IMG/VR virus record: IMGVR_UViG_3300009553_000022
Location: 1 to 64,000 of that record
DNA length: 64,000 nt
From: a virus
Direction: 5' to 3' (one strand)
Shown: piece after piece, positions 1-60,443 of the stretch
Position numbering within the stretch: position 1 is the stretch's first letter
Layout: each line of letters begins with the position of its first letter
Position numbers and translations under genes: made by a program
The notes under the pieces: model-generated
Told to the model about the DNA's origin: nothing
Seen by the model: only the letters and a program-made list of their open reading frames with translations
Databases searched by the model: none

Positions 1-227
1 ACGCCAACGAGCGCGGGATCCAGCAGACGTCGCCGGAGATGTTGCAAGCCTCCAGTGCCGCACCCCTAGCCTTTTTGAAGGAGGCGCAAAATGCGCCGTA
101 TTCTCCGCTCGCGGCTGAAGCGCAGTTGATCCAGGCCCTTGCGGGCAACGGTCAACTCGGCAAGCCCGACGTTGTGGAGAACCTCAGCGGCGCTGAGCGG
201 GCAATGCAAGCCTTCGGGAACATCTAA
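1..227 (+). CDS. C-terminal end of a truncated structural-region protein
   Basis: The reading frame is open from base 3 at the left edge and ends with TAA at 225-227. The visible 74 residues are Ala/Gln-rich and predicted helical (ending ..AMQAFGNI). No domain is recognised. It lies 5 bases before the next gene on the same strand, so it belongs to the same virion-protein operon. An internal ATG at 39 exists, but the frame runs through it to the edge, so the gene most likely begins outside the window. Confidence 0.6.
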   Translation, partial: ANERGIQQTSPEMLQASSAAPLAFLKEAQNAPYSPLAAEAQLIQALAGNGQLGKPDVVENLSGAERAMQAFGNI

Positions 228-232
228 CGACC

Positions 233-1606
233 ATGCCGTTCTACCCTGCACAACGTGGCGGCGGCGGAAACGCCGGCCTGATGTGGAACATCTACAGCGA
301 CCTCTGGGGTCCTGGCAAGAAGCAGCGGGGTGTTGATAACGACCTCCGCGCGCAGGCCAACACTCGCGCGAACGAGGCCAACATGCGTGAGGCTGAGCTG
401 TTCCCGCATCAGCTTGAGCAGGTGAAGACCGCAAGCGCCGAGAAGGCCCGAGAGGCGGCCCGCGGGCAGGCCCTCGACAAGATCGGTCAAGCCCCCCGGG
501 CGCAGCTTCCAAACCTCCCTTTTGTTCCGACGGAAGCAATCAACCAGGGCCTCGCGAAGACCACAACCGACGCCCTCGAAGCGTTAAAAACCACGCCGTT
601 CGCCCAACTGTCACCCGAAAGCCAGGCGTTTGTACAGAGCGCCGCGCGCAATGTCTTCCCCGACCTGAACGAGGCTGACGCGGCGGTGAACTGGGACCGG
701 ATCGTTGGCGCCCGGACAGGGAACGCAGGAATTTTGCCGCAGGCCGTCACGTCTGAAGGCGGCAGGGTCAGCACTCAGTCTGTGCCTGCGTGGAAGGTCG
801 ACGAGGAGAAGTCGAAGGCGGCGCGCTCCAACATGGATGCCCTGACGAAGGCGGGCCAGGGGCTATTTCAAGATCTGCAGGGGCAGCCGATGATCCGAAC
901 TTATTTCGAGTCTAGCAAGGCTGTCGATACGCTGGGCAAGGCGGTCGAAGTCGCGAAGACCAACCCGAACGGAGTCGACGACGTTCAGATCATTTACAAC
1001 TACATCCGGGCGCTTGACCCGTCTGTCGTGAAAGAGGGTGAGATCCGGCTCCTGGCCGAGACCAGCCCGCTTTTGTCGCGGCTCGGCATCAAGCTCGACT
1101 CTCTGACGACCGGCCAAAAGCTGAACCAGAAGCAGCGCGACTTGATCTTGACCGCCGCCAAGCGAGGACTGGAGAGCCACGCGACCGCCGCGCAGAAAGT
1201 CGCTGACTCTTACGTGAAACAGGCCGAAGCCCAGGGCATCCCGTCCGGCAGCGTCGCGTTTCCGCAATTTGGTAGTCCGAAGGTGCAAGATCCGACGACC
1301 CTCGTTACTCCCCCGGGGGCGCCCCCGGCGCAGGCGCCGAACGAAGTGCCGTTTTTCAACTCTGAGGCCGAGGCCGAAGCCGCGAACCTGCCGCCCGGCA
1401 CAGTTGTCTCTTATTATGATCCGGTGAAGGGTCGTAATGTGCGGGCTCGGTGGCATGGACCAGCCCAGGCCGCGCCTGCCGCACCTACGCCTCCGCCTTT
1501 CCAGGCGTGGCCGCCGCAGTTCACGCTGCCGTCAGCGCCGCAGAACCCTGCGCAGCCGGGGTTTCAGCTTCCGGACATTAACCTTCCCCTCATTCTGTCC
1601 CGCTAA
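233..1606 (+). CDS. Virion-associated protein, function unknown
   Basis: 457 aa. The N-terminus (MPFYPAQRGGGGNAGLMW) is followed by a Lys/Ala/Gln-rich, mostly helical middle. The C-terminal ~110 residues are rich in Pro and Ala and look disordered. There is no signal peptide or membrane segment. Its stop overlaps the start of the 2,424-aa polyvalent protein (TAATG), so the two are translationally coupled. By position it may be an internal virion or ejection protein. No family was recognised; the role is inferred from context only. Confidence 0.75.
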   Translation: MPFYPAQRGGGGNAGLMWNIYSDLWGPGKKQRGVDNDLRAQANTRANEANMREAELFPHQLEQVKTASAEKAREAARGQALDKIGQAPRAQLPNLPFVPTEAINQGLAKTTTDALEALKTTPFAQLSPESQAFVQSAARNVFPDLNEADAAVNWDRIVGARTGNAGILPQAVTSEGGRVSTQSVPAWKVDEEKSKAARSNMDALTKAGQGLFQDLQGQPMIRTYFESSKAVDTLGKAVEVAKTNPNGVDDVQIIYNYIRALDPSVVKEGEIRLLAETSPLLSRLGIKLDSLTTGQKLNQKQRDLILTAAKRGLESHATAAQKVADSYVKQAEAQGIPSGSVAFPQFGSPKVQDPTTLVTPPGAPPAQAPNEVPFFNSEAEAEAANLPPGTVVSYYDPVKGRNVRARWHGPAQAAPAAPTPPPFQAWPPQFTLPSAPQNPAQPGFQLPDINLPLILSR

Positions 1607-4600: not shown

Positions 4601-7600
4601 CGGGCCGGGGCGAGCTGAAGGAGCCTGCATTTGATTTCGAGAATGTCGCGGATGGTTTCGTCACCAAAAGCGGCAAATTCTTGTCCCGCGAGGAAGCTCT
4701 GCAGCACGCGCAGGCCCAGGGGCAACTCCCGGACAGCGCCCGATTTGAAAACGGGCAGCTGGAGTCCGATGCGTTTGCGGCACAGCGCAGTTTCTCCCCG
4801 TCGTCTGACTCTTACATCGACGACGCCCGCGACGTTTTCGCGAGAGCCCCCTCGCTCCAAACGCTCCGCTTCGACCGCGGAACCGGCGAGTTGATCGATC
4901 ACAAAGGGGACGTTGTTTCCGAGAACGACCTGAAGACGTTGGCACCAGGCGTCGACATGGATCGGGTCCGTGGTGCGGTTGTCACACTGACCGCACTGCA
5001 GGAGTGGGAAGCGCGGCAGGGCAATCTGTTTTCGCAGGTCTCGCAAGCCCCTAAAGCTCCTGGCGAGCCCGTCGAAAACCGTAAGGTGTTATACGCACCG
5101 TCGAAAGACAAACTCGGTTTCTATTCCCAGCTCGAAGAGACGTTAAAAGCGATCCCGCCGAAGTCGTCTCCTGCACAGATTCGCGCCATGTTGCGGCAGG
5201 GTGTGAAGGAAAAGGGCAAGCTACTCGCGAAGCCGGTTAAGGCTGAGGAGATGCGCGATACGAAGGCGCCAGACGGGACGACGTTCGAGGAGTGGCTGAA
5301 CGAGAACCCGAAGGCGACGCTCGACGAGATCAAGTCGTGGGCGCAGGTCAACAAGACGAAGGTATACGCCAATGAAGGCGCGAATAAGATCGAGGGAGAA
5401 GAGTATACCTCTGAGCCTGAGCCCGTGCGGTTTCGCGAGGCTCATTACGTTGAGATCGCGCCTGATCATGTATCAGATCACTTCCGTCAAAAAGTCGAAG
5501 ACGAGTTTCACGACCAATGGGCCGACGAGGTGCCGGAGGAAATGACCAGGCCCGAGTTTAAGGAGGAAGTTGTGCGGCGGATTGATGCTTATCTTAACGA
5601 GCATCCGGTGCGCGAATGGACCGACAACGAGCATGGTTACACGATCCAAGGGTCCAAGGAACAAGGGTACGCTGTATTTACTCCGGACGGCGATGAAGTC
5701 GACTCGGAGATCACTCGCTTTAGTCGCGCAGTCGACGCTGCCAACGAGCACGCGTTTGACGCCATGTCCACGACTGAGCGGCACGACGACGAGATCAGCA
5801 CAGAGCCCCAGTACAGCTCTTATGTCCTCGGCAAAGCCGGGGAGAACTACCAGGAAGTTGTTTTTGAAGTGCCGGGGAACCGTCCTGGTTCTGGCTTCGA
5901 GAGCAGCCATTTCAGCGGCAACCCGGATTACATTTTCCATGCCCGCACGAGTGAATATAAGACGCCGAAGGGCGAGAAGGTTTTCCTGATCGAGGAGACG
6001 CAGAGCGATCTGCACCGCGGGGGACGGGAAGAGGGGTACAAAGATTCGTCAATCGAGCGAAAACGCAAGCAGCTGTCAAACGCCTTCGATGCCCGTAGAG
6101 ACGCGATCTCCCAGGCGAACCAGATAACACCAACTGCTGACTTACAGAAGCTCTTCGCGGACGATCCTGAACTTACTCGCATAAAGGCTGAGAGAGAAAA
6201 GCTCCACGAGTCGCAAGGCAAGCTCCCCGACGCGCCACTCAAAAAATCCTGGTCCGAGTTCCTTCTGAAGTGGGGTCTTCGTGAGGCTGCGGCTCGCGGC
6301 GCGCAGTACCTGGGTTGGGTGACTGGTGGGCAGACTCAAGAGCACTACAATTTGCGGAAGGAAGTCAAAGAACTGTCCTGGGATGGGAAGACACTCAAGG
6401 CGGATCTTGTCCGTGGCGGACAGAGGTCGTTTCCGGCGGCCAACGAGGAAGAGGTCGCGAAGTACGTTGGGAAGGGCGTTGCGAGTCGGTTGGTAACGGC
6501 TGACCTGAAGCCCGAGCCGGCGGTTATGACTGAAGCGCAGTGGGCGCAAAAATTCCCTGAGCAGTGGGCAGAATACGCGAAGTCGCACAGTATTGGGCGA
6601 GATCCGTCTAGTGCACACTGGAAAGCGGTTGAACCAGACGGGGCGTCTAGCGGAGTATTTACTTCGCAAGAAGCCGCGGATTTGTGGTCGAAGCGCGTGT
6701 CTAGTACGCGATCTGTATCCGGCGGAGGTCTTGAGATGGGCGGCGAGTGGGCGGTCAACATGTACGACAAGGCCCACGTCAATTTTCTGGAGGATTACGC
6801 GAAGTCGCAGGGTTGGCTGAAGGCTCTCGGCGCGGAGCAGAGCAAGCCCGACCCGAACCAGCTCGAACTCGCCGGCATGCCCGAGCACAAGGCGAAGCGG
6901 GCTGTTCGAGACGTGGAGATCATTACGAAGCATGCCGGATCGGGTCCTTCTGGGGCACGCGGCGAAGGCGAAACTGCGAAGGTTCACGCGATCGCAATCC
7001 CGCCCGAGGTTAAGGATCACATCCTCCACGAGGGGCAGCCGATGTATTCGCCTAGCAGCGAGCCCGCGGCTCCCGACACGCTGACGGCTCTGCACAACAC
7101 TTCTGGCGCTGGCATTCTGGCCGCGGCTCGTATGGGCGGCATTCCCGCCCCGTCGGTGGCTGTTATGAAGCGGGAGCACCCGTTCTCGTCCTTCGGTGAC
7201 ATCACGCTGATCGCGCCGCGCGACGTTGTGGATCCTGAACACGGCACAAAAGTTTTCGACGCGGACGCGTACACGCCGCGCCAGCCCAAGCCGGAATACG
7301 GTCGGATTCGCTCAGCAGCAAAGAGCCAACTCCGTAAGCAGTTCGAGGCCGAGGTCAAGCGCCTGGACGATTACAGCAACTTCCACGAGGTCCTTGAGGC
7401 ATTGGGCGGACAGTACCGGACGCCGAGCAAGGAAAAGGCTATTGAGGCGATGGGCAACTCTCCCGCCGTTGTGTCTAAGTTCCTTGCCGATACCGGCGGC
7501 AACCCGGCTGACGTCTACCGCCGACAGTCGAAGCCCGGTGCGTCCTCGAACGAGTATTCGACCGAACTCCTTAAGGAACGGGAAACGCTCCGGAAGATTC

Positions 7601-8880
7601 TGTCGGGCCGGCAAGACGAGTTTAATAGCTGGGCCGAGAACATCCTGGACCCCGTATTCGGTCAGCCCTTTGTGAAGGTCGGCGGCCAGCGCCTTCCCTA
7701 CACCGCGGAGAATGTCGCCCGGGCGATGACCGGCAAGACCCGAGCCCAAGAGGGCGGGATGACCTACGGCCCCGGGCACGCCCGCGCGTCTGCCTCCCGC
7801 CAGTTCGGGTCAGTTCCGGAGATGCACAAAGCCGAGGGCAACCTCGTCTCTGACGACGATTTCCAGAAGCACCGCGACGCGCAAGAGCCGATCATGGACG
7901 CGTACCGGCGGGCGGCGGTCGGAGCAAATAACATCGAGCACCGGAGCACCTGGGATAACCTCGACGACGCGATGCGCGTTCTTGGGATGTACTTGCGCGG
8001 CGGCAAGAGCGACAGCCCGGCCCGGATGGCCGCGGCGCTGCGCCGCCACGGGTTCGGAGACGACCCGGAAGTCGTCCAGGCGGCGATCAAAGCTGCAGGC
8101 TCCCTCCGCGATGCTCCGACGGAATACTTCGAGGCCAAGCCGCAACGGGAGGTCAAACTTCCTGAGTTTGTCGGCGCTGTAGTGCCTGAAAAAACCTCTC
8201 CGCGGGTCCTGGCTGTGCTGGAGAAATACGGCATCCAGGTCGAGACATACAAGAACAGCGAAGACCGGCAAGCTGCGACTGTGCGCCTTCGCGAGAAGCT
8301 GGCTGGCGAAGGGCAGGCTGTTCATTTCGCACCATCAGAGGATGAAGGCTTCTTTTACAAAGCCGATCCGGATCTTCCTGGGCACGATCCTAAATACCGT
8401 ACCCCGGAGCCTGAAAGGGACCTGCCGGACGCCTCAACTGCTCGGAATGCCGGACTGATTCATTACTGGCAGGCTCCAAGCGGGAACCTGTACGACGCCG
8501 ACCGTTATCATTGGAAATGGGCACGGGAGCATGTGACAGGCGATGCCGCCGACGCAGTCGAACGGATGATCCGCAATGGCTGGACTAGGATCAACGTCTC
8601 GGCTGGTGACAGGATGGTTCTTGTCCAAGGCCGGCCGAGTCGAGCCCAAAGGGCGAGGTTAGAAGATTTGGGGTTCAGTGTCGAGCTGCCGGTAATGGAC
8701 GACAGCGGCATGCTTTTGATTGAGTCGACGGGTGAGTTCGGCCAACCCCCGGAATTTTCGCCCAGCGGCACAGCCCCGCAGAAGGGCGGTAAACGTCCCG
8801 CCCTCCGCGAGCCTAGGGAACACCTGGCACCAGGTCCGGAGCAACCGGACGACGAAGAGAATGAAACCCACATACAATGA
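1606..8880 (+). CDS. Phage large polyvalent protein with zinc-protease motif
   Basis: 2,424 aa, the largest gene in the window. It opens with a short duplicated motif (PFEILDEQP, then GFEVLDEQP) and a long Ala/Lys-rich helical region. A zincin signature HELGH sits at residues 508-512. Around 1400-1480 is a segment (GNPDYIFHARTSEY then FLIEETQSD) of the type repeated in phage polyvalent proteins. It is followed near 1550-1730 by a region with the motif YLGWVTGGQTQEHYNL. Proteins of this class are known to ride in the capsid and enter the host with the DNA, carrying several enzyme domains against host targets. Only the HExxH motif is a direct functional clue. Coding is continuous with no frameshift. 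Confidence 0.85.
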   Translation: MPFEILDEQPAQPPSAKPAGGFEVLDEQPVDASFVMGRVAQGQPVSLAEAKIVRDSDQKGEGWGKFLGDVGHGLWETGKGAVSNAGKAWMDPNLQAYPLKKFTTLAEGALRGTYDLANMARQAARKGYDKVRDSGAPEDEKVQHLQSRLNQSAEWAKGRAQGWDGQGTLTPFVGNLPDALKPMLAPSAPGAEAASLVLDPTLLIGGEGAVGKGLMKAAAAGALKKIPGAAKVAQLASKAAELAPKVVPKTLEGVEKAANAVKEAAAKPGAFVRRVPEEFRAPVSTAALPVTAPALATRKVAGAVSKVAEFTRRLSELPGATQAGSRLQQLAKDASAPAWARNTARVLDARGVGSAAFDAASELGKGAAHGGAYGAALGAGTAETSEERAHAIGGGMALGAAGRVGMRYLPAGRAHKIAQMQANDLASLFERLEGQGTRPELLDKLPSHAADTLAAYTAAVDPSLKVTLHDDAGFAAAAPEQPNAAAFYNPKTHEVVLNLDRLGSATGHELGHALMSARKVDGEARLAIDSALGTDGVLAAAREYAGQLVDNDLKRQPPPLPGQPPPLPQAREQLIANKIAQLTQAHGGDGWVYSEIVADAAKNQITPDLYKNTLRPSMAKTVLEALGAKARGDLAGMLPPGALFSDARIYGGDIAKMLQTHLRESHREGIKPTTAKEEGVNVPSDLLGKHASVPVGSDAVKVEGSAIVPRTPAEVRQIEKARQQAVKPIVDQQPKPQGDVSPEVAPRVGSDGTVEVRGTKISDQIAGLPQFSDEAKRIAKQVEDVIAGGQGGIIRTWYQALGSSKVGTWAKSVRKKLGNWSVSQVDIAPYEFHISDANNVLVRGVSRTAAEQKLARWQQEGKLDKLWGGDADAFRKDLHTYLQNHAQGLRGAVNLGDEVRDALNLFVTGQASKFKDANPLRADVSGKDKNGIIRSIRLDRMANPEHVEGSLPLDWTKQQRNFSPAGDDPVVAAALRTPGGQIFSDRWHGGAMMQIMDAAGRGELKEPAFDFENVADGFVTKSGKFLSREEALQHAQAQGQLPDSARFENGQLESDAFAAQRSFSPSSDSYIDDARDVFARAPSLQTLRFDRGTGELIDHKGDVVSENDLKTLAPGVDMDRVRGAVVTLTALQEWEARQGNLFSQVSQAPKAPGEPVENRKVLYAPSKDKLGFYSQLEETLKAIPPKSSPAQIRAMLRQGVKEKGKLLAKPVKAEEMRDTKAPDGTTFEEWLNENPKATLDEIKSWAQVNKTKVYANEGANKIEGEEYTSEPEPVRFREAHYVEIAPDHVSDHFRQKVEDEFHDQWADEVPEEMTRPEFKEEVVRRIDAYLNEHPVREWTDNEHGYTIQGSKEQGYAVFTPDGDEVDSEITRFSRAVDAANEHAFDAMSTTERHDDEISTEPQYSSYVLGKAGENYQEVVFEVPGNRPGSGFESSHFSGNPDYIFHARTSEYKTPKGEKVFLIEETQSDLHRGGREEGYKDSSIERKRKQLSNAFDARRDAISQANQITPTADLQKLFADDPELTRIKAEREKLHESQGKLPDAPLKKSWSEFLLKWGLREAAARGAQYLGWVTGGQTQEHYNLRKEVKELSWDGKTLKADLVRGGQRSFPAANEEEVAKYVGKGVASRLVTADLKPEPAVMTEAQWAQKFPEQWAEYAKSHSIGRDPSSAHWKAVEPDGASSGVFTSQEAADLWSKRVSSTRSVSGGGLEMGGEWAVNMYDKAHVNFLEDYAKSQGWLKALGAEQSKPDPNQLELAGMPEHKAKRAVRDVEIITKHAGSGPSGARGEGETAKVHAIAIPPEVKDHILHEGQPMYSPSSEPAAPDTLTALHNTSGAGILAAARMGGIPAPSVAVMKREHPFSSFGDITLIAPRDVVDPEHGTKVFDADAYTPRQPKPEYGRIRSAAKSQLRKQFEAEVKRLDDYSNFHEVLEALGGQYRTPSKEKAIEAMGNSPAVVSKFLADTGGNPADVYRRQSKPGASSNEYSTELLKERETLRKILSGRQDEFNSWAENILDPVFGQPFVKVGGQRLPYTAENVARAMTGKTRAQEGGMTYGPGHARASASRQFGSVPEMHKAEGNLVSDDDFQKHRDAQEPIMDAYRRAAVGANNIEHRSTWDNLDDAMRVLGMYLRGGKSDSPARMAAALRRHGFGDDPEVVQAAIKAAGSLRDAPTEYFEAKPQREVKLPEFVGAVVPEKTSPRVLAVLEKYGIQVETYKNSEDRQAATVRLREKLAGEGQAVHFAPSEDEGFFYKADPDLPGHDPKYRTPEPERDLPDASTARNAGLIHYWQAPSGNLYDADRYHWKWAREHVTGDAADAVERMIRNGWTRINVSAGDRMVLVQGRPSRAQRARLEDLGFSVELPVMDDSGMLLIESTGEFGQPPEFSPSGTAPQKGGKRPALREPREHLAPGPEQPDDEENETHIQ

Positions 8881-19253: not shown

Positions 19254-19269
19254 AGCAAACGATGTGCCA
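19254..19269 (-). promoter_or_regulatory. Sigma-54-type promoter b
   Basis: Minus strand TGGCACATCGTTTGCT, a near-perfect match to the -24/-12 consensus, including TTGC. It is followed by CTTGTCTGACACTGTGAAAC. It sits 3 bases after the stop of the primase-helicase and faces the methylase, DUF4406 and polymerase genes. Predicted +1 is about 19243. Confidence 0.8.
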
Positions 19270-19272
19270 CGT

Positions 19273-21403
19273 TTATCGCTTCAGCAGAATCGACTTGGTG
19301 ATCTTGAAATCCCGCTCCGCGGTGCCCTCGACGTGCTCGATCCCCGAGTTTTCCATGCGGGCCAGGGTCCGGAGCTGGGTCGAGAAGCGACGCATCTGCC
19401 ACTGCTGCACGAGGGGCCGCACCGGCTCACAGCCAATCATCGCGCTGTATAGTGCTGTGGGGGTGCCGGTCCAGACGTCGGTGTTGTCAAAAACTACCGA
19501 CTGGCTGGCGAACAACGCGATCAGCTCGTACAGGTCGCGCGCTCCGCTCTGTTGCTTGCTGAGTTCGAGCAGTGACGGGTCAAAATAGCTTTCAACACCC
19601 GTTCGGCCCCCGATCCAGATCTCCGCGGGCGGGTTGTATTGCAGCAGCCAGCGGGCGAACATCGCCAGCTCCCGCGCGATCGCCGCCTCGGGGTTCTCCG
19701 GCCACTTGCCAGGGAACGCCTGGGCGAGGAAGAACATGAACTTGTCGCGAGTGTTCTCGTTCACTTCCGGCAACACTGCCGCAGAAGCCGCGTCGCAGTT
19801 GAGGGTGCCGAAAACACGGCCGCACCACACGAGCGACGCCTTCTTCGGAACTTCGGATGCCGGCTCTGCTCCGGGTTGACGACAAGCCCCTTCAACCGCT
19901 GGGCTGCAGACGACGCCTCGCGGTCGTTGGACGGAGCGTCCTCGTCGTTCATTGCCAGCAGGGCGCACTCGAAAAGCTCGTCATTGAATGCATCCCGCGC
20001 TGTCAAATGGCCCCAAGGGTTCGCCGACCGATACCCAGCCAGGGGCTTAACGACGTGCAGGCACCACAGCGTTTTGCCGGAGTTGACGGGGCCGGCCAGA
20101 AACAGCGCCTGACCCATTGTCGGCTTGTGGTTCAAAACCGACTCGTAGAAACGCTTGTGCCAGGCCATCGCGTGATGAAACCCAGCGCCGTACAGGCTGT
20201 GGGCTAGGCTCCAGATGAAGGGAAAGTCGCGTTCCGGCACGACAAGCTCGACTTGCGCCGGTTGGACAGGGATTAGATTACAGGTGTTTAGCATCCGCCT
20301 CCCGTCGATCTCGATCATGCCTGGACGTCGACAGACGAACGGCGCGGCGTGCTCGACGCGGTTAAATGTGTTGATGTGGTGCAGGACCCGGTGAGCCTCG
20401 GAGACTGTTTGTCCTTTGACTTTCTGCGTCGACAGCCCGCCACAGGCGAGGTGCAGCAGCGTGCTCTCGCGGTCGTAGTCGCGCCAAACGCCGCCGATGT
20501 TGATGAAGTAAGTTCGCCCGTCCCAGGCGGAATCTGCCGCGAGGTTCCCGAGGCTCCTGACCCGGTTCTCGTCGCACCACTTCGCGCCGAAAAGGGCCTC
20601 CCAGGACATGAACGGGACATTGCCAGTAAAGCACAGCATGCCGTCGGGCTTAATCTGGCAGCCGTTCGGGTTGTCTGCCGTCTCGTCCCAGAAACGCGGG
20701 CCAAGGTTGTTCACCTCGAACGGACCTTGCCAGCGACCGGGCCACTTCTCCGCAACCTTCGCCGCGATGACTTCGAGGGGCAGGTTGTCCGTGCTGCCGG
20801 TGTGCTTCTTTGCGACGCTGGCCACAACGCCAAACAACGTCTTCCAGGCGATCGGGGCATTGCCCAAGGCGCGCCACTCGCCCCGTTCGTCCAGACTTGT
20901 TCCGGCTTGCACGAAGCCTCGTCAAATCCGGCAAACGCTGTCGCCAGCTTAAACTTGTCGACGAACGCTTTAATGACTGCCGCGGCGTGCGCGGAGTTCA
21001 TTACCAGGATCGGGCGCTCGAACAGCCACACGGGCCGGAGCTTGTTGCTGAGCGTGGTTTCCAGAAATGTCGGGCGGAAATCTTCGGGGATCTGCGCGAT
21101 TAACGCGTCAACGTCTGTCTGCACGACGTCGTAATCCAGGGCCAGCCCGTTCATTGAATGGGCCTCGTTGCCGCTGCCTACGCGGAGAGTCGGAATGGCC
21201 CCACGCACCGCGGAATAAATTTGCCACTGAAAATCAGGCTTCGCGGTGAGTTCGCGGCGGTCCCGTTTCGGCATCGCCTTGAGTTCGGCAAGCCGCCCCT
21301 CGCCCGGGTCATACTTCCAGGGCTCGGCGAGTTCGCCGGTCTTGGCGCGGAGGTTCGGGAAACAGACAAAAAGGGGCGGCATGTAAAAGGGGAAAGAGGG
21401 CAT
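19273..21403 (-). CDS. Primase-helicase, split by two apparent -1 frameshifts
   Basis: Three overlapping frames join into one protein of about 700 aa. The first (21403 to about 20895) has PrimPol-like motifs: LALDYDVVQTD and FDEASCKPEQVW. The second (to about 19880) carries the helicase Walker A (AGPVNSGKT) and Walker B-like LLAMNDEDAP. The third (to 19273) carries VWCGRVFGTLNCD and the remainder of a D5/SF3-type ATPase. Both switches are -1, near GGGG (about 20893) and CCC (about 19876, minus-strand sense). A single missing base at each would restore one frame. Either two sequence errors or real frameshifting; the fused product would be the replicative primase-helicase. Confidence 0.75.
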
Positions 21404-22600: not shown

Positions 22601-23746
22601 GGTGCCAGACTGTAGCAGACCCTGTGCCACGTTGTTTGACATGGCGACGTAGCTGTCCGCGAAAACTGCTTCCAACTTGGTTAGCGCGATGTCGCAGCAG
22701 CCCAAAACTTGATCGGGGGTTAAGACGTCTTTCAGCGCCTCAGCGACAAGCGCCGGCTCGTGAACTGACCGATCCCGCTTCCTGGCGCACGCCTTGATGA
22801 CAACCTCCTGGCCAGGGGCGACCTCCACGCGAAGCACGCCGTTAGGTTCCGCCTGGGCTAACTCTAACGCTCTCGCCTTTATCCCACTCTTGCTCTCTTC
22901 CAGGAGAGTTTCGAGGCGGTCGAGGATGTAACACGCCTTGGCGACGTCTTCCGGCGTGTGAATTTCTATCGCGCTGAACGTCGACGGCATCGGCAGCGGC
23001 TCAGCCTTCTGAACTGCGACCGCTGCGGTCTGAACGAGTGCGGGACAACTCCCGGCCCGCGAACAAAAATCGCAATACGGATTGACGTTGAGCGTCGGGT
23101 TTGGTTGCTGCGCGCTGCGAATGACCCCTTGAACGGCTGTAAATATATCATATAACTCCTCCCGGCGAAAGCTGGCCGCGGTCGTTTTGTGCAGTTTCGG
23201 CTGCACGAACAGCACACCCAGCTTGCCGAGCTTCGGGAATTTGTGGAACGATCCGAGCGCGTACGCCTTGCCCTGGTAGTTGACTGCGGCAGGTGGTACG
23301 GGTATCCAACCGAACTTATGATCAATCAAGACGCCCGTCGTTCCATCCTTTAAAATGATCAAAACGTCGAGGTGCCCGGCTGTCAGCTCTTGTCCCGTCG
23401 GGTCCGGAACTGTCACCCTGATTTCGTTGTGGATCTCCTCCCAACCTGCCGCGATCCAACGGTCCATTTCCTTGCATGAGAATGCGAGGAGCGTGTAGTC
23501 CTCGTCACTGATCGCGAACTCCCCCGACTGACTTAATTCGTCCAACGCTGTCAGTGTACGCGTGTGCCGCCCCTCCTTCACACGATCGACCAAAACGTCG
23601 GCGAGTTCATGCAAACGGGTACCTTCTCGGGACGCCTCGGACTCGCCGTCGTTAGGCAAGTAGCCGGGACAAGCTGCATAGGCGTTGAGTTTCGACGGCC
23701 CGTAGCGGTGATGCGTTCGGGCGGCGTGGTTAGGTTGTTCGTTCAT
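22373..23746 (-). CDS. DUF2800-type PD-(D/E)XK nuclease with Fe-S cysteines
   Basis: 457 aa. An N-terminal Cys (CPGYLPN, C26) and a C-terminal CxxCxxxxxC (C225, C228, C234) form the Cas4/AddB-like cluster. The nuclease core is GHLDVLI (D127) and LIDHKFG (D142, K144), preceded by RLHELAD. It likely resects DNA ends in replication or recombination together with the ssDNA-binding-like protein downstream. Residues after ~382 form a Lys-rich helical extension that reads through sigma-54 promoter c. It begins 17 bases inside the preceding gene. Confidence 0.8.
   Translation of the reverse strand: MNEQPNHAARTHHRYGPSKLNAYAACPGYLPNDGESEASREGTRLHELADVLVDRVKEGRHTRTLTALDELSQSGEFAISDEDYTLLAFSCKEMDRWIAAGWEEIHNEIRVTVPDPTGQELTAGHLDVLIILKDGTTGVLIDHKFGWIPVPPAAVNYQGKAYALGSFHKFPKLGKLGVLFVQPKLHKTTAASFRREELYDIFTAVQGVIRSAQQPNPTLNVNPYCDFCSRAGSCPALVQTAAVAVQKAEPLPMPSTFSAIEIHTPEDVAKACYILDRLETLLEESKSGIKARALELAQAEPNGVLRVEVAPGQEVVIKACARKRDRSVHEPALVAEALKDVLTPDQVLGCCDIALTKLEAVFADSYVAMSNNVAQGLLQSGTVKANQTSDPKLKKRILAEAKEQAREAKSTKKQAKEIMAMTLSAENLLTRADGLIQYATIRLEKSAPAISEKVSGS
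22614..22629 (-). promoter_or_regulatory. Sigma-54-type promoter c (inside a coding region)
   Basis: Minus strand TGGCACAGGGTCTGCT, followed by ACAGTCTGGCACCGTGAAAG. It has the same spacing and +4 GTG as the other members, but lies inside the DUF2800 frame. It would drive the nested frame, the ssDNA-binding-like gene and the primase-helicase. Predicted +1 is about 22603. Confidence 0.7.
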
Positions 23747-25739: not shown

Positions 25740-26476
25740 TCGCCGAACACAGAGCCGCGGGGTTTGATGCCGACGAATCCGGCGACGGACGCGTCGAGGG
25801 TCTTGCGCCCTCCATTGTGTACCTCTGTCGCCGCCTCGATCCGCTCCATGACGAAGCGATCCAGGAGGGCCAGGAAATCGGCGCCGACGCGTTTACCCCG
25901 GGCCTTGGCACGGGCTTTAACTTTTGACACGACTAGGAACTGTGGTTTTCTCATGCTATTTTTGGGTTTATTTTTGCGACTGCGGCGCGTGTTCTGCGCC
26001 TGCTCACAAAGTGGGATCCAGCAGCAGTTATCTGGGCAGTAGTTTCCGTTGACCTCCCTGCGCTCTATGGTGAGGTCTTCCCGGAAACCGGACCCACGAG
26101 CCCACTGAGCGAAAGGAATGAATTCCTCCCACTCAGGGCAAATCGTGATCCCCCGGCCTCCGTAGCTGTGGAAATTAGGGTCCTTGGGGTTGCGGCAACG
26201 CTGCCGCATGTTGGTCCAAACCTTGTGCAGGGGCGTCTTTGTCTCGCCGTGAACGCGGAACCGGGTCGCGTTAAGCCGGCCTTTTTCTCGGGCGGCGCAG
26301 CCGCAAGACGTCGTATTGCCCGCGCGGAGGTTGTCGAACCTCGCCACAAATTCGGTTCCGCAGTCGCACCGCACTTGCCGGTAACGCGTGGGGAACTGCT
26401 GCCCGTGCGTGGCGCCGGGGCCTAGAATGACAACCCGCCCGTAACGCTCGGGATCCGATGTTTGTCTAGGTCTCAC
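25736..26476 (-). CDS. HNH/AP2-like endonuclease-type protein
   Basis: 246 aa from GTG 26476. An N-terminal zinc-binding segment (RCDCGTEFVARFDNLR then TSCGC) precedes a core with HKVWTNMRQRCRNP, GGRGITICPEW and NGNYCPDNCCWIPL, typical of phage HNH/AP2 homing-type proteins. The tail is Lys/Arg-rich. The GTG is at predicted +4 of sigma-54 promoter d. Earlier ATG/TTG codons in frame (reading ARRLLMSDAV) lie upstream of the predicted +1 and are translated promoter sequence. It heads the operon down to the DUF2800 gene. Confidence 0.75.
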   Translation of the reverse strand: MRPRQTSDPERYGRVVILGPGATHGQQFPTRYRQVRCDCGTEFVARFDNLRAGNTTSCGCAAREKGRLNATRFRVHGETKTPLHKVWTNMRQRCRNPKDPNFHSYGGRGITICPEWEEFIPFAQWARGSGFREDLTIERREVNGNYCPDNCCWIPLCEQAQNTRRSRKNKPKNSMRKPQFLVVSKVKARAKARGKRVGADFLALLDRFVMERIEAATEVHNGGRKTLDASVAGFVGIKPRGSVFGE

Positions 26477-26489
26477 AGCGTCAGACATG

Positions 26490-26505
26490 AGCAGACGCCG
26501 TGCCA
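26490..26505 (-). promoter_or_regulatory. Sigma-54-type promoter d
   Basis: Minus strand TGGCACGGCGTCTGCT, identical over 16 bases to promoter f on the other strand. It is followed by CATGTCTGACGCTGTGAGAC. Predicted +1 is about 26479, with GTG at +4. TGTCAGAC and CTGACAGTG motifs lie 120-150 bases upstream and could be activator or repressor sites. Confidence 0.85.
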
Positions 26506-26506
26506 C

Positions 26507-26752
26507 GTTTTGAGAACTTAGGGCACCCTTGAACTAGCCGGCCTGAACTTAGATCCTGGGGTTTTGCCGAAAAGAGTAGGCAAAAACAGAGAAGGGCCGC
26601 CGGGGTAAAAACCGCTTGATCTCCTTGTCAGACGTGGTTTACTACGGCCTGACAGTGTACCGAGTCACACTTTAAACATAATTCTGCGACCCGCGCAATA
26701 GCCCCGAAAACCGCTTAATTTTAACCGTAACTTGCCGATTGAACTAGCGTAT
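26507..26752 (+). promoter_or_regulatory. Intergenic region between divergent operons
   Basis: 246 bases without a gene, AT-richer than its surroundings. It holds the upstream side of sigma-54 promoter d and, toward the integrase side, TGTCAGACG (26627-26635) and CTGACAGTG (26651-26659), members of the TGTCWRAC family. CTGACA followed after 17 bases by TTAAAC is a weak candidate promoter for the integrase operon. No strong -10 is visible. Confidence 0.35.
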
Positions 26753-27001
26753 ATGAGCCACCAACATACATGGGTCCTGGCGGTCCTGGAAGAGGGCCGC
26801 GTCAGCCAACACATCGAAATCCGGTCGTTCCCGTCCCGCCGCGAGGCGCTTCTCGCCCTGGGCAGTTACGGCGAGGCCTGGCCCGGAGAGTCGCAGCAAC
26901 GGTTCCTAGACGCCGTAAACGGCGATCAACTGGACGTTGCCGAAGTCGTCGCGGGGAACAACTTCACTCTGACCTGGACAATCAAATCGACCGCCCTATG
27001 A
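26753..27001 (+). CDS. Small protein upstream of the integrase
   Basis: 82 aa from ATG 26753 (MSHQHTWVLAVLEEGRVSQH...). It overlaps the integrase start as ATGA, so they form one operon. There is no obvious excisionase HTH; the fold looks alpha/beta. It could be an integration accessory factor, but nothing in the sequence shows that. Confidence 0.6.
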   Translation: MSHQHTWVLAVLEEGRVSQHIEIRSFPSRREALLALGSYGEAWPGESQQRFLDAVNGDQLDVAEVVAGNNFTLTWTIKSTAL

Positions 27002-28143
27002 GCAGCCGATGGGAAACAACCAAAGTGCCGGGCATCCGCCGCGACAAAGCGACTGGGATGCTTTACCTGAACAAGAGCGTCAACGGTCGAGTCTACGGCG
27101 AGAGCCTGAAGACGACGGACCTCGCGGTCGCGAAGCAGAAGTTTTTCGCACGCCTCGCGGAGCTGGCAAGCGAGCCCCGCCCGATAGCCCCGAAGCCCGA
27201 GCGGTATTCCCTGGGTGAGATCCTCGACACTTACGCCGCCCGGCTCGACGCGGAGCACGGCTCCCTCGACCCGAAAACCATCAAGCGGAAGAAGTGGACG
27301 CTGTCGACGATCGTCTCGACCTGGGGCGAAGTGCCGGTCCTCAAGACCCGCGGCGTCGGTAGCTTCCGCAGTCTCCCCGCGAAGCGCGTCAGCTATGACG
27401 ACCTCCTGGCGTGGCGGAAGCATTTCATCGACCCGAAGGGCGGCAACTTCAAGCCGTCGTATTTCAACCTCGTCCGCGATGTCCTCGAAGAGGTGTTTGA
27501 CCTGGCTGTCGAGTTCGGGCAGATCCGCGAGAATCCCGTTTGTCGTCTCAGCGTCGCAGCGGTGCCCCGCGCGCATTACGTCCTGCCGACTGGTGAACAG
27601 TGGGCGGCGATGCTGGCCAAGATCGACACGGCGACCGAGGTCGGTCAGAACTGCCGCGACTTGCTCGAAGGGCTGTCGTTGACGGGACTGCGGATCAGCG
27701 AGGCGTATGCTCTGCGCGTCGAGATGGTTGACCTGGAAGCCCGCGAGGTTCGCTTGCCGGCCGCGATTGTCAAAGGCCGTAACGGGCGAAGGAACGGACG
27801 GACGATCGATCTTATTCCCGAAGCTCACGCACTCATGACGCGGCTTGTCGCGACCGCTGGCCCGGACGGGCTGATCTTCAAAGCCGAGGGACGACGCACA
27901 TTGACGCGCATCTGCAAGGAAGCTGGCTGGACAGCGAAATTTACTCTCCACTCGTGCCGACATTTCTTCGCGACGCGGATGCTTGAATCGGGCGTGCCGG
28001 TACAGACCGTTGCGGAATGGATGGGACATCAGGACGGCGGCACGCTGCTACTGAAGACCTACACGCATCTTTGCCGGCGGCATGGGAAGGCGGCTGCGGC
28101 GAAGGTTACGATTTTCCCGGGCGAGAAGAAGGACGCAGTCTAA
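26998..28143 (+). CDS. Tyrosine-family integrase
   Basis: 381 aa from ATG 26998. The N-terminal arm/core-binding part (to ~residue 180) includes NKSVNGRVYGESL. The catalytic domain carries TGLRISEA (Arg), VKGRNGRRNG (Lys region), LHSCRHFFATRM (His-x-x-Arg), MGHQDG (His) and TYTHL (Tyr nucleophile). All expected catalytic residues are present. It should insert and excise the phage at an attachment site, so the phage is temperate. The attP is expected nearby but not identified. Confidence 0.92.
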   Translation: MSSRWETTKVPGIRRDKATGMLYLNKSVNGRVYGESLKTTDLAVAKQKFFARLAELASEPRPIAPKPERYSLGEILDTYAARLDAEHGSLDPKTIKRKKWTLSTIVSTWGEVPVLKTRGVGSFRSLPAKRVSYDDLLAWRKHFIDPKGGNFKPSYFNLVRDVLEEVFDLAVEFGQIRENPVCRLSVAAVPRAHYVLPTGEQWAAMLAKIDTATEVGQNCRDLLEGLSLTGLRISEAYALRVEMVDLEAREVRLPAAIVKGRNGRRNGRTIDLIPEAHALMTRLVATAGPDGLIFKAEGRRTLTRICKEAGWTAKFTLHSCRHFFATRMLESGVPVQTVAEWMGHQDGGTLLLKTYTHLCRRHGKAAAAKVTIFPGEKKDAV

Positions 28144-28561: not shown

Positions 28562-28898
28562 ATTTCTGAACGTCCTTCTTCCGCACTAAATACGGCCGGA
28601 ATGGCTTCAACGAAGCGGTGCAGACTAGGCACTCCTCCCGTCGGCCTGTGGCTGAACCCTGTTCGTATTCTGGCGGCCCATCAAGAGAGCGGTGCTCCCG
28701 GCCCCTTCGGAATTTGTAATTGTCGACGATCGCCATTCTCAAGCCGATCACGTACCCGGTGCCGGACTCGCACAGCGGCGTCGGCGAAGCCTGCCGGACA
28801 CACCCCTGGCCGTGAACGTAGTCACTCAAAAAGCGTTCGGAGCAAGTCATGCCGTAGGCCGGCCCGTGTTCGATTTTCTGGCCAATGAAATAGTTCAA
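28539..28898 (-). CDS. Unknown protein downstream of the sigma-54 activator
   Basis: 119 aa (MNYFIGQKIEHGPAYG...). Cys-containing motifs (MTCSERFLSDYVHGQGC and EECLVC) could bind a metal. It starts in an ATGA overlap with the activator gene, so it is co-translated with it. No family recognised. Confidence 0.6.
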   Translation of the reverse strand: MNYFIGQKIEHGPAYGMTCSERFLSDYVHGQGCVRQASPTPLCESGTGYVIGLRMAIVDNYKFRRGREHRSLDGPPEYEQGSATGRREECLVCTASLKPFRPYLVRKKDVQKYADITAS

Positions 28899-29782
28899 GC
28901 TACCTCCTTCAACGTAATCCCAAGAGCTGCCAGCTTCGCACGGCCCCCATCCCGGTTGACGCCCAGGGCCTCACTAAACTGCGTGACGTTCCCAGCCTCA
29001 GCCCAGACAGCCCGCAAGGCGGCCTCGTCGAGGCATGCGTCCGGTATGGTTCCCAGGAGCAGCAACCGCGACAGCCAGCCGAACAGCTCCCGACAGTTCC
29101 CTGTCCAGGGCCGCGTCTGCAGGTCGAGCAATATCTCCGGCGAGAGCACGGGAACCGGAAGCTTATGCCTCTTCGCTTCGGCTGCGAGGAACTGGGCCGC
29201 GAGGGCTCCCAGGTCTTCCGGCCGTTCCCGCAATGGTGGAATCTCCAGGGTGAAGGCGGCGAGGCGATGATAGAGGTCGGCGCGGAGCTTGCCGGACTTG
29301 ATTGTGGCGGCTGGGTCGACATTCATCGCCGCGACGATCCGCACGTCGACAAATTCGTCTCGGTCGCTGCCCAGGGAGCGCACCCGACTATCCTGGAGGG
29401 TCCGCAAGAGCTTCGACTGCGCCTGAGCCGGCATCTCCGACAGCTCGTCGAGGAACAGCGTCCCGCCAGATGCCGCGCGGAACAGGCCCAGCCGCGACGT
29501 TACAGAGCCCGTATACGCGCCCCGCTGCGCGCCGAACAGCTCGCTTTCAATTAAATCGGCAGGAAGCGCCGCACAGTTCAGCGAAACCTTCGGCCCCGCG
29601 GCGCGGGGGCTATTGCCGTGGATCAGGTTCGCGAAGACCTCCTTGCCCGTCCCCGTCTCACCCAGGACGAGAACAGGGACATCAAATTTAGCGAGATGCA
29701 CAGCCTTACGGGCAAGTGCCTGAATGGCCGGACTAGCAAAGATAGGGACCAAGCGAGTTTCATAAAGGTGCCGTCCTGGCAA
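28895..29782 (-). CDS. Minimal sigma-54 activator (bEBP, PspF-like)
   Basis: 295 aa: an AAA+ domain and a DNA-binding domain with no N-terminal receiver, GAF or PAS domain. Walker A is GETGTGKE (41-48). The sigma-54 contact loop is GAYTGS (88-93) where GAFTGA is canonical; the essential Thr is kept. Walker B is GGTLFLDE (106-113), the arginine-finger region LRADLYHRL (166-174), and sensor II NCREL (229-233). The C-terminus is a Fis-type helix-turn-helix (NVTQFSEALGVNRD, 265-278). Such proteins hydrolyse ATP to open promoters bound by RpoN polymerase. The TTG start at 29782 is uncertain. The gene is second in an operon with a sigma-70-type promoter, while at least eight sigma-54-type sites lie elsewhere in the window. 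Confidence 0.92.
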   Translation of the reverse strand: MPGRHLYETRLVPIFASPAIQALARKAVHLAKFDVPVLVLGETGTGKEVFANLIHGNSPRAAGPKVSLNCAALPADLIESELFGAQRGAYTGSVTSRLGLFRAASGGTLFLDELSEMPAQAQSKLLRTLQDSRVRSLGSDRDEFVDVRIVAAMNVDPAATIKSGKLRADLYHRLAAFTLEIPPLRERPEDLGALAAQFLAAEAKRHKLPVPVLSPEILLDLQTRPWTGNCRELFGWLSRLLLLGTIPDACLDEAALRAVWAEAGNVTQFSEALGVNRDGGRAKLAALGITLKEVA

Positions 29783-30775: not shown

Positions 30776-30820
30776 ATTGCCTTGCGCTGCACAGCTTTGT
30801 ATCATCTTGTCAAACACAGT

Positions 30821-30849
30821 TTGACAACGTCGCACGCATGAACTATTCT
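30821..30849 (+). promoter_or_regulatory. Sigma-70-type promoter of the DUF932 gene
   Basis: TTGACA (30821-30826), 17 bp, TATTCT (30844-30849). The -35 lies in a perfect inverted repeat TTGTCAAAC-ACA-GTTTGACAA (30807-30827), the best single palindrome of the operator family. A purine-rich AGGAAAA stretch lies before ATG 30873, so this message does have a leader of about 16 bases. Confidence 0.7.
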
Positions 30850-31790: not shown

Positions 31791-31812
31791 GTCAAATTGT
31801 GTCTGACAGAGT

Positions 31813-31841
31813 TTGACAAAGTAACCTAAGCGGATTAGGAT
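31813..31841 (+). promoter_or_regulatory. Sigma-70-type promoter of the PAPS-reductase/methylase operon
   Basis: TTGACA (31813-31818), 17 bp, TAGGAT (31836-31841). The predicted +1 is 31848, the A of the ATG: a leaderless message. Three operator-like units lie in a row: TTTGTCAAA (31788-31796), TGTCTGACA (31800-31808) and TTTGACAAA (31812-31820). Confidence 0.75.
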
Positions 31842-33538: not shown

Positions 33539-33577
33539 GCCTTTGTGAGACACGGTAAAATAATGTCAGACAACGTT

Positions 33578-33606
33578 TGACAACGTAACCGAACCGGCTT
33601 AGGATA
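33578..33606 (+). promoter_or_regulatory. Sigma-70-type promoter of the long early operon
   Basis: TTGACA (33578-33583), 17 bp, TAGGAT (33601-33606), nearly the same as the promoter at 31813. The predicted +1 is about 33613 and the ATG is at 33615. TGTCAGACA (33565-33573) and GTTTGACAA (33576-33584) form the operator-like pair. Confidence 0.75.
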
Positions 33607-40996: not shown

Positions 40997-41356
40997 TCAG
41001 GGGACGATGATGGGAGAAGACGCCTGGGCCTTCGGCGCGCGGCGGCGGCGCTGGAGAATGGCCTCGCACCACGCAGCCGCGACAGCAGCCACCTGGACGA
41101 GTTCTGTATACAGCTGGCGGTCTCGCTCCTCCTCGGTCGTCAGGACGCCGTTGCGGTAGTCACACAGCGCACGGGCGACTTCCCCGTTCTCCTCCGCGAG
41201 GACAGTGTAGCGCGCCTCGTCCAAGACGTTGGGGGCCGCACAGGTCCAGGCAAATTTGCCTGACTTGCATAGAACCTCCTGGCGCTCGCGCTCCGCGATG
41301 ATGTCGTTCAGGACGGCTAGGCGAGCCGCGGCTCCGAGTTTGTCAGTGTCAGTCAC
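40997..41356 (-). CDS. MazG-like nucleotide pyrophosphohydrolase-type protein
   Basis: 119 aa from GTG 41356, at predicted +4 of sigma-54 promoter e. The helix TVLAEENGEVARALCDYR carries a MazG-like EExGEV motif, and the rest is helical. Such proteins hydrolyse NTPs or lower alarmone levels during infection. The apparent start further upstream (AHRLLMSGT) is translated promoter sequence. It leads the operon that runs to 39049. Confidence 0.65.
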   Translation of the reverse strand: MTDTDKLGAAARLAVLNDIIAERERQEVLCKSGKFAWTCAAPNVLDEARYTVLAEENGEVARALCDYRNGVLTTEEERDRQLYTELVQVAAVAAAWCEAILQRRRRAPKAQASSPIIVP

Positions 41357-41369
41357 AGTCCCAGACATG

Positions 41370-41385
41370 AGCAGCCGGTGTGCCA
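41370..41385 (-). promoter_or_regulatory. Sigma-54-type promoter e
   Basis: Minus strand TGGCACACCGGCTGCT preceded by T, followed by CATGTCTGGGACTGTGACTG. Predicted +1 is about 41359 and GTG at +4 starts the MazG-like gene. Just upstream is TGTCTGACAG-CGTCAAACGT, an operator-like pair abutting the -24 box. Confidence 0.8.
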
Positions 41386-41471
41386 ACGTTTGACGCTGTC
41401 AGACAGTGGTGTGCAGTGTCGAGGCCTGAATGTTAGGCACGTCTAATATTGTTAGGCTGTATTATACCCGG

Positions 41472-41949
41472 CGCGGAGCGCGTGAAAATCACGCAGGTAA
41501 GTGTGCCATTTTGTCTCACTGCGCAGTTTTTGCACAGTGCCGGTTGTGTGTGTGCACGGACCCAGTAGCCCCGCGGGAGCACGATTCAGCCCCCACATCG
41601 CCGCCGCAGCCCGCCCGGACCCGGCGCCGACCCTGGGCGTCAACGGGTTAGGCGCGCTCCGCGGCGAGGCCTGGGGCGCTCACACTTGTAGTAAGGGTGT
41701 GCGCGACGGCGGCTAAGACGCTGAGGCTGAGGGGCATATCCCCCGCGGAGCACGCTTGAACTAGGGAGGGGAACTAGCGCGAACGTTAACGGTAGCGCGG
41801 TCCCCAGGCGCAACCCACCGCGGAGCACGTAAGGTGTTGATAATAAACCGATTCCCCCCGAGACCCCCGGGGAAGGGAACCCCCGGCGGGGGCAGAGGGA
41901 CCGAATTTTTGAATTTTGGCCGGTCAGAAAGTCCGCGGCGCGCTCCGCG
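41472..41949. repeat. Five iteron-like 11-mers CGCGGAGC[A/G]CG
   Basis: Copies at 41472-41482 (+), 41653-41663 (-), 41744-41754 (+), 41819-41829 (+) and 41939-41949 (-). The first, second and last have G at the variable base, the others A. More copies are scattered in coding DNA elsewhere (for example 21516, 30952, 33056, 37412, 37492, 40951), but none is as dense as here. Confidence 0.65.
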
Positions 41950-41981
41950 AGGGGCTTGCAGGCGGAAAGCGGGTTCTCAGG

Positions 41982-42134
41982 CAAAAGGCGGAAATTTTGC
42001 CAAAAACAGGGGGGAGGTCCCTCCCATACCATCTAGTAAGAATAATATAATAATAATAATAAAATAATATTATTACTAGTAATGGAGTAGGGAGCCACTT
42101 CCCCCCTGTTTTGGCCGAAATTCCCGCCTTTTCG
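41982..42134. repeat. Long inverted repeat around an AT-rich core
   Basis: The left arm (41982-42025) and the reverse complement of the right arm (42090-42134) align over ~45 bases with roughly 85% identity, sharing AAAAGGCGG and CAGGGGGGA. Between them lies a tract made almost only of A and T (42034-42083), itself partly palindromic (CTAGTAAGAATAATAT against ATATTATTACTAG). It could extrude as a cruciform or unwind easily. Confidence 0.75.
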
Positions 42135-42136
42135 TG

Positions 42137-42165
42137 TTGCACGGTGTCAAACGGCGTGTTACAGT
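42137..42165 (+). promoter_or_regulatory. Sigma-70-type promoter at the right of the noncoding region
   Basis: TTGCAC (42137-42142), 17 bp, TACAGT (42160-42165). Predicted +1 is about 42172, six bases before ATG 42178. The spacer holds TGTCAAACG and the start region TGTCTGAAG, operator-like units. Confidence 0.5.
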
Positions 42166-42177
42166 GTCTGAAGTCTT

Positions 42178-42879
42178 ATGTGTCCTGTTAGAATCGTGTC
42201 TGTTGACGTCGAAAAGCTCGGGCGCTGGCCCGGTCTCCGGCCCGACTACGTGGAGCTTGGCCAGGAGTTTGATTCCATCGCTGCGCTTGGGCGGGCGTTC
42301 GGTTACCCGCCCAGGTCGCTTCAGCTTAGAGACAAGCCGCTGCGGCTTCACTGCGGTGTCACGATTCAGTTCACTGACGTCCCGGTACCGACGAGGCAGG
42401 AGATCCGCGACGAGTGTGTGCGCCTCCTGGAGTCTGGTGACCCTGCGACAATACAGCGGGCAGCCTTACGTGCCGCGTTTGCGGTGCGGTTCGGTCTAGT
42501 CGACGAGGGCCGGCAGAACTGCCCGGCTGATCGGATGTATCGGACGCTGCAAGATGCCGGTGCGCTCCGCGACGTCGAGCGCCTTTTCGACCACAGGCAC
42601 TACTTCCGTCGTGAGAACACGGCGGTGCTGGTGACGCAGCCGTATGGGCTCGGGCGCGCGGAGGATCCGACGTTGCACGAGTGGGCAGCCCGGTTTGGGA
42701 TCGTGGTTTCAGGGGAGGACGAGTGGTCGTTTCACTATCCCGGCCAGACGTCGCTGATTATGTTCGAGCTGGACTTGCCGGCCGTCCGGCGTCTGGGTGT
42801 GACCGCCTACCGCACCCAGCGTAAAGCCCGACGCGAAGAGAACATCGCCGCATTGCGACGCCACCACAATCTCGTATGA
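42178..42879 (+). CDS. Unknown protein with CGVT module
   Basis: 233 aa. The first ~65 residues (FDSIAALGRAFGYPPRSLQL then LRLHCGVTIQF) resemble the last ~45 residues of the next gene (HLGYASANYLACRLAG then KLGCGVTVCYV). Both have a GY-x(n)-CGVT pattern of the kind used as small DNA-recognition modules beside homing-type proteins. The rest is helical. First gene after the origin-like region. Function unknown. Confidence 0.6.
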   Translation: MCPVRIVSVDVEKLGRWPGLRPDYVELGQEFDSIAALGRAFGYPPRSLQLRDKPLRLHCGVTIQFTDVPVPTRQEIRDECVRLLESGDPATIQRAALRAAFAVRFGLVDEGRQNCPADRMYRTLQDAGALRDVERLFDHRHYFRRENTAVLVTQPYGLGRAEDPTLHEWAARFGIVVSGEDEWSFHYPGQTSLIMFELDLPAVRRLGVTAYRTQRKARREENIAALRRHHNLV

Positions 42880-47048: not shown

Positions 47049-47203
47049 TCCGCTTCAACCGCAATCTGCTCCTGCCGAGCTTTTGTGTCGACCTGTGCTG
47101 GCATTCCGGCCCGCGCCGCCTGCCCACGCTCCACATCCACCTTTGGCGCTGGTCGCTGACCGTCAACTCGCCATGGGATCATCTCATGTCTGACATTGAC
47201 TGA
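47045..47203 (+). CDS. Small protein before promoter g
   Basis: 52 aa (MIRFNRNLLLPSFCVDLCWH...), aromatic and His-rich in the middle. ATGA overlap upstream. It ends 5 bases before sigma-54 promoter g. Function unknown. Confidence 0.45.
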   Translation: MIRFNRNLLLPSFCVDLCWHSGPRRLPTLHIHLWRWSLTVNSPWDHLMSDID

Positions 47204-47208
47204 AACCG

Positions 47209-47224
47209 TGGCACGGTAGCTGCT
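47209..47224 (+). promoter_or_regulatory. Sigma-54-type promoter g
   Basis: TGGCACGGTAGCTGCT, followed by CTTGTCTGACACTGTGAAAC. It is preceded by TGTCTGACAT-TGACTGAAAC, an operator-like tandem. Predicted +1 is about 47235, with GTG at +4. It heads the operon with the protease, FkbM methylase, terminase and probably the portal. Confidence 0.85.
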
Positions 47225-47237
47225 CTTGTCTGACACT

Positions 47238-59687: not shown

Positions 59688-60443
59688 ATGGCAATTTTCA
59701 CCGATACCGATCCGTCTGATTCTGACAGCGTGCGCCTGGGCGCGCAGCAAATCCGCGAGCTGAAGGAGATCCTCAACAACACGTTGGGGCTGCTTTACAC
59801 GCTGTCGCCGGTCGACGACCCCGAGGGTTCCGCGGCTGCCGTCGCCGGAGGTGTTTCGCAAACGATGATCGCGGATTTGGCGATCTCGTCTGGCAAGTTG
59901 GCTGCCAATGCTGTCACCACCGCAAAGATCACCGATAGCAACGTCACCACTGCGAAGATCGCTGACTCGAATGTCACCACTGCGAAGATCGCTGACTCGA
60001 ATGTCACCACTGCGAAGATCGCTGACTCGAATGTCACCACTGCGAAAATTGCGGCCGGTACGAACGGGCAAGTTCTGGTCACGTCTGGCGGAGCCGCCAC
60101 TTGGGGCTCGGCCCTGCAAGCAACCGCGAACCAGTCGATCGGCAGTGCTGCCGAGGCGATCAACCTCTCAGTCGCGCATGGGCTGGCTGCGGTGCCGAAG
60201 TATGCGGAGTGGGTGCTGGTCTGCACCGACGCCGGGGGCGACGCCGGGTACTCGCAGAATGACGAAGTGTCGATCGTGTCCAACCACGAGAACAACTCGC
60301 AGGTGACGACCTGGCGCGACGCGACGAACGTTGGCGTTTCATTCACGTCTGGGCTCTCGTTAAAGGTTTACAACAAGTCGACGCAGGCCCTCACCAGTAT
60401 CTCGCGTTCCAAGTGGCGCGCGAAAGCTTACTTCTCTCTGTAA
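59688..60443 (+). CDS. Tail/fibre protein with decapeptide repeats
   Basis: 251 aa from ATG 59688. A helical start (RLGAQQIRELKEILNNTLGL) is followed by five near-identical VTTAKI[AT]DSN decapeptides (~76-123). The C-terminus is a compact beta domain (YAEWVLVCTDAGGDAGYSQN and SLKVYNKSTQALTSISRSKW). The repeats resemble beta-helical or trimeric stalk repeats of phage fibres. The stop overlaps the next ATG (TAATG). Confidence 0.65.
   Translation: MAIFTDTDPSDSDSVRLGAQQIRELKEILNNTLGLLYTLSPVDDPEGSAAAVAGGVSQTMIADLAISSGKLAANAVTTAKITDSNVTTAKIADSNVTTAKIADSNVTTAKIADSNVTTAKIAAGTNGQVLVTSGGAATWGSALQATANQSIGSAAEAINLSVAHGLAAVPKYAEWVLVCTDAGGDAGYSQNDEVSIVSNHENNSQVTTWRDATNVGVSFTSGLSLKVYNKSTQALTSISRSKWRAKAYFSL
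59913..60056 (+). repeat. Tandem 30-bp coding repeat
   Basis: Units at 59913, 59943, 59973, 60003 and a partial one at 60033, each coding VTTAKI[A/T]DSN. The three copies at 59943-60032 are identical in DNA, including silent positions, so they expanded recently or are kept homogeneous. Confidence 0.85.

Follow-up and report, generated by a model that had tools for sequence, protein, structure and literature searches.

The intergenic region at 41.4-42.18 kb of this phage genome, in which a putative initiator-binding block lies beside a hairpin-forming unwinding element, is put forward here with middling confidence as the replication origin of the phage. Origin activity is suggested by sequence features: a melting minimum adjoins a conserved block, repeats cluster in the region and strand polarity changes near it. 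An origin is the most likely single explanation that accounts for all four together. The coordinates of the features are collected in Table 1.

The window, that is the whole stretch of DNA analysed, comprises bases 1-64000 of the 66,629-bp IMG/VR virus record IMGVR_UViG_3300009553_000022. The record represents a tailed phage, since large terminase, portal and major capsid protein are all encoded. Among its other genes are those for a family-A DNA polymerase (PolA), exonucleases, a helicase and a tyrosine integrase, and because of the last of these the phage is probably temperate. A relative designated L004 (record G001, 35,160 bp) encodes a TerL 86% identical to that of the phage and is the sole close relative that spans the hairpin region. 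It aligns from 39.4 kb of the window to 66,629 and then with window positions 1-6572, and this unbroken order across the record ends indicates a circular or circularly permuted genome and a nearly complete record. DNA and protein searches of phage records gave no match for the region or for the first rightward gene, TerL matches in these records reached 23-26% identity at most, and a prophage search using TerL found none. Neither a tRNA nor a tmRNA was found in the window, and an Rfam search of the whole window gave no match. One product, a 2424-aa protein (1606-8880, + strand), carries at residues 1825-1983 a nuclease domain of the PBECR5 (Barnase/EndoU/ColicinE5/RelE-like) type. Short direct repeats at 59912-60057, within the gene 59688-60443, are common to L004 and another record, L003.

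Table 1. Positions of the features in and around the candidate origin region (window coordinates).
Feature	Position	Strand	Basis
Possible initiator, primase/helicase-like gene in three successive frames	19273..21403	-	Weak DUF5906 match
Exact TGGCACRNNNNYTGCW sites	19254-19269(-), 22614-22629(-), 26490-26505(-), 41370-41385(-), 43409(+), 47209(+), 53807(+)
Sigma-54-type promoter-like site TGGCACACCGGCTGCT, leftward operon	41370..41385	-	Motif search
Cluster of CCGCGGAGCRCG-type repeats, candidate protein-binding	41471..41950		41471+, 41653-, 41743+, 41818+, 41939-; variant near 41572
19 nt identical to L004 2247-2265, upstream extension of block	41632..41650		19/19
Conserved non-coding block	41754..41941		78% identical to L004 2358-2544
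Left arm, imperfect inverted repeat	41983..42051	+	Repeat search, fold, direct reading
A/T core, least stable 50 bp of record, candidate unwinding element	42033..42082		Composition, melting scan
Right arm, imperfect inverted repeat	42064..42132	+	Repeat search, fold
Promoter/operator-like stretch, rightward operon, TGTCAAAC at 42145	42139..42178	+	Weak, direct reading

The hairpin and its A/T core

The initial annotation described the only long gene-free region, left by divergent operons, with an inverted repeat at 41982-42134 around a nearly pure A/T core. The gap is indeed the longest (839 bp, ORF-based calls) but not the only long one, as others measure about 590-715 bp, and gene calls place the operons that diverge from it leftward at 40997-41386 and rightward from 42178. 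The repeat was correctly located and the composition of its core borne out (95% A+T across 40 nt). Its arms, given as 45 bp and imperfect, are imperfect but longer: 69 nt each and 74% complementary, with 12 nt between them, in a hairpin of ~150 bases. On direct reading the best-matched part is the outermost 32 nt (41983-42014 / 42101-42132), where 28 of 32 positions pair and 4 differ.

Folded as single-strand DNA the hairpin reached -41.6 kcal/mol, compared with -15.5 ± 2.8 for 200 dinucleotide shuffles (z = -9.3), none of which folded equally well; as RNA it gave z = -8.9. In a genome-wide scan its hairpin score of 37-38 was the best in the 66.6-kb record, the runner-up scoring 17, and the peak scores of eight Markov-randomised genomes were 14-18. 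The hairpin is genuine and well beyond chance. A chimeric-read artefact is an unlikely source, because near-perfect arms would then be expected and these arms are too diverged.

It also appears quite unlikely that a fold-back (MITE-like) insertion or an inverted duplication in a tolerant gap gave rise to the hairpin, next to a block that is itself functional. Such an event would fit the full-length palindrome, the close matching of its outer ends and the lack of such a hairpin in L004, but no second copy was found in the phage genome and no target-site duplication is visible around the hairpin on direct reading. Furthermore, the arm-consensus pattern had no exact match in viral and genome contigs, the arms matched nothing in plasmids and phages, and L004 has a melting minimum of its own at the same place. 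Plasmid matches (300 of 302 from Enterococcus) covered the A/T core alone and were taken as low-complexity. Pattern matches in L007, L015 and L016 occurred by chance within unrelated sequence, and one 19-nt match in L012, with nothing further by blastn, was likewise counted as chance.

The A/T core is the sole spot in the record with an A+T content of at least 80%. By nearest-neighbour energies the stability of the whole record is lowest there for stretches of 30, 50 and 100 bp alike, with -24.6 per 30-step window at the core, a mean of -46.5 (sd 3.4) and a next best value of -33.2. The core thereby displays the local melting minimum in A/T-rich DNA that characterises iteron and A+T-rich theta origins. 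In L004 the stability minima for 30, 50 and 100 bp are found at 3623-3722, between the common block and the common rightward operon. This coincidence is moderate evidence on its own, since intergenic DNA is generally AT-richer; A/T-rich tracts mark promoters too.

Conserved block, repeats and strand polarity

The non-coding block next to the hairpin includes 32 successive bases (GTTGATAATAAACCGATTCCCCCCGAGACCCC) identical to L004, and the matching coding DNA of the two genomes is mostly 67-74% identical, with one short coding stretch at 80%. The long hairpin itself is absent from L004, whose A/T tract gave z = -2.1 relative to shuffles and a hairpin score of 12. The tract is located ahead of the same rightward operon as the hairpin of the window. 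The second rightward gene (133 aa) is common to both genomes and the first (233 aa) is absent at that place in L004, which has a 264-aa gene (2687-3481), its start resembling a signal peptide, between the block and the tract. Similarity of the hairpin region to L004 3480-3800 was strong against plain shuffles, but homology is not claimed because shuffles preserving local composition equalled it in 2-5%.

Repeats of the CCGCGGAGCRCG type, allowing a single mismatch, were seen 25 times with 4 expected, and five copies fall inside 480 bp here. They do not form a regular initiator-repeat array, the spacing being irregular, both orientations occurring and copies being found within genes too. Nor did CGTYAACGGKTA qualify as an iteron, with just 4 near-matches in the window, unclustered. 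The tetranucleotide CTAG is strongly depleted (50 seen, about 236 expected); five copies occur in a stretch of 490 bp (26422-26906) around the integrase gene start, and the block and hairpin together contain four more (41761, 41774, 42033 and 42076).

A region that is non-coding, conserved and repeat-bearing might also serve for packaging (pac/cos), for attachment or for partition, but this reading is very improbable here. The integrase gene (26770-28143) is 14 kb from the hairpin, so the region does not adjoin it as an attP would, and the terminase is 7 kb distant. For a partition site, one of the functions raised in the initial annotation, no specific support emerged: among the genes scanned none was recognised as a partition gene, and a phage that integrates needs none.

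The octamer CGCGGAGC was found 23 times on the + strand and 5 times on the - strand to the left of the hairpin (8.7-42.03 kb), and 6 and 9 times, respectively, to the right (Fisher p = 0.008). The contrast of 21 exceeds codon effects, synonymous-codon shuffles giving 5.8 ± 2.7. A free change-point search placed the change of polarity at 40.9-41.3 kb (permutation p = 0.03), which is suggestive only, because other k-mers switch elsewhere in the same search, some of them more strongly. The signal is moreover one-sided and lacks the textbook two-arm pattern, since the excess is mostly on the left + strand. In L004 the octamer counts were 5+/1- to the left and 1+/5- to the right of a split just ahead of its A/T tract (Fisher p = 0.08). 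GC skew at fourfold sites of + strand genes was -0.16 on the left and -0.01 on the right, in agreement with the octamer polarity, and a contrary group of five leftward genes at 39-41.4 kb had a skew of -0.21, against the expectation for an origin.

Of the functions initially proposed, a replication origin has the best support. It is favoured by the melting minimum, the position shared with the relative, the conserved block and the polarity change, and disfavoured by the hairpin not being kept in L004 and by the cumulative GC skew, the check then recommended, whose raw curve has no decisive extremum at the hairpin. The PolA, exonucleases and helicase of the phage were counted for an origin as well. 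Counted against it, beside the missing hairpin, were the irregular repeats, the one-sided octamer, the contrary skew, the distant and weakly identified initiator, the association of A/T-rich tracts with promoters and the coverage by a single relative.

Divergent operons and sigma-54-type sites

The main rival to an origin is a transcriptional control region, a possible though doubtful reading in which the gap holds operators and promoters of the divergent operons, the hairpin acts as insulator/terminator or leader, and the A/T core is a bend or protein-binding tract. Divergent operons do flank the site, conserved blocks between such operons are frequently regulatory, and a sigma-54-type site on the leftward side and the operator-like TGTCAAAC on the rightward side would suit this role. 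The hairpin is also stable as RNA and contains terminator-like sub-hairpins on both strands, but its loop of about 50 nt and its U-tracts of only U4-U5 are unlike the compact G/C stem of a good intrinsic terminator, and there are no convergent genes needing termination. The distance of 50-100 bp by which the A/T core precedes the apparent rightward promoter is too great for an UP element, and the octamer polarity is not predicted by regulation alone. One region can do both jobs, serving as origin and in transcriptional control.

Including the site beside the leftward operon, seven exact TGGCACRNNNNYTGCW sites were identified, and with at most one mismatch there were 9, against 2.2 expected; they stand mostly directly ahead of genes, and similar sites are present in L004 too. 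The product of the gene at 28895-29782 (- strand) has the AAA+ domain of a sigma-54 activator (PF00158, E 5e-59), with GAYTGS at the position of the GAFTGA loop. From these motif and domain matches, the phage may be transcribed through the host sigma-54 RNA polymerase; a literature search for a phage driving its genes in this way found none. Operator-like TGTCAAAC / TGTCTGACA repeats, exemplified by the palindrome TGTCAAACACAGTTTGACA at 30808, occur at 30808-30826, 31800-31818, 33572-33582, 16346, 19251 and 47187-47227, adjoining promoters and sigma-54-type sites.

Candidate initiator and comparison with known origins

Three overlapping frames on the - strand, 20 kb from the hairpin, resemble one protein and likely represent a primase/helicase gene split by an assembly error or by a real frame change. 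The middle piece matched DUF5906 at E = 0.0018, below the curated cut-off, and carries a Walker-A-like motif, GPVNSGKT. No match to a primase domain profile and none in a PDB sequence search was obtained for the candidate, and AlphaFold models of two pieces were too poor for use (mean pLDDT 32-39).

Initiation at the proposed origin may be depicted as follows: The conserved block and/or the repeats at 41.47-41.95 kb would be bound by an initiator of the phage, perhaps the one encoded by the primase/helicase-like gene at 19.3-21.4 kb. The A/T core, where the genome is least stable, would open next, and the imperfect inverted repeat could extrude on supercoiled DNA and expose a single strand. 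This strand might then serve helicase loading and priming, with the stem-loop origin of plasmid pRN1 as the model.

Replication of pRN1 requires a 100-nt stem-loop that is poorly conserved in sequence and has conserved flanks; its authors reported a similar stem-loop in phage BIP-1, and replicons of this type combine a prim-pol with an SF3 helicase (PMC4234260). The phage shares with them a long stem-loop (100 nt in pRN1, 150 nt here) far above chance, with a large loop, weak sequence conservation and a conserved non-coding neighbour, and also a primase/helicase-like gene. It differs in that the candidate initiator is encoded 20 kb away and its primase domain is no more than putative. Two defining features of the type were not found, namely retention of the stem-loop across relatives (here the one relative, L004) and a site immediately following the gene for the replication protein, and the likeness to pRN1 is an analogy at most.

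An A/T-rich unwinding element beside initiator repeats is the general rule for bacterial, plasmid and lambda origins (PMC5043065). The A/T core adjoining a repeat-bearing conserved block follows this arrangement, but the region differs from lambda-type iteron origins by its additional long hairpin and by the lack of an iteron array with regular, helically phased spacing; nor was a gene for a lambda O-like initiator recognised around it. The ori of phage P4 has direct repeats and works with a Toprim primase; neither was found here. Shared with the P4 ori, which is served by the alpha protein, are an A/T-rich segment and an initiator of the primase/helicase type (PMC4234260 in part).

The element probably belongs to an already known kind and not to a new one. 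It is unlikely to represent a distinct form of dsDNA bacterial-phage origin, one in which a fast-evolving, cruciform-forming stem-loop with an A/T tip is recognised as initiation site by a primase/helicase-type initiator and a genome-wide polar CGCGGAGC is oriented to the stem-loop.

Small genomes show only weak strand skew, which is why the replication origin of most uncultured phages is not known. In this case melting minimum, conserved non-coding block and polar octamer converge on about one spot in two diverged relatives, which yields a fragment of ~0.8 kb for testing and a route to the origins in similar phages.
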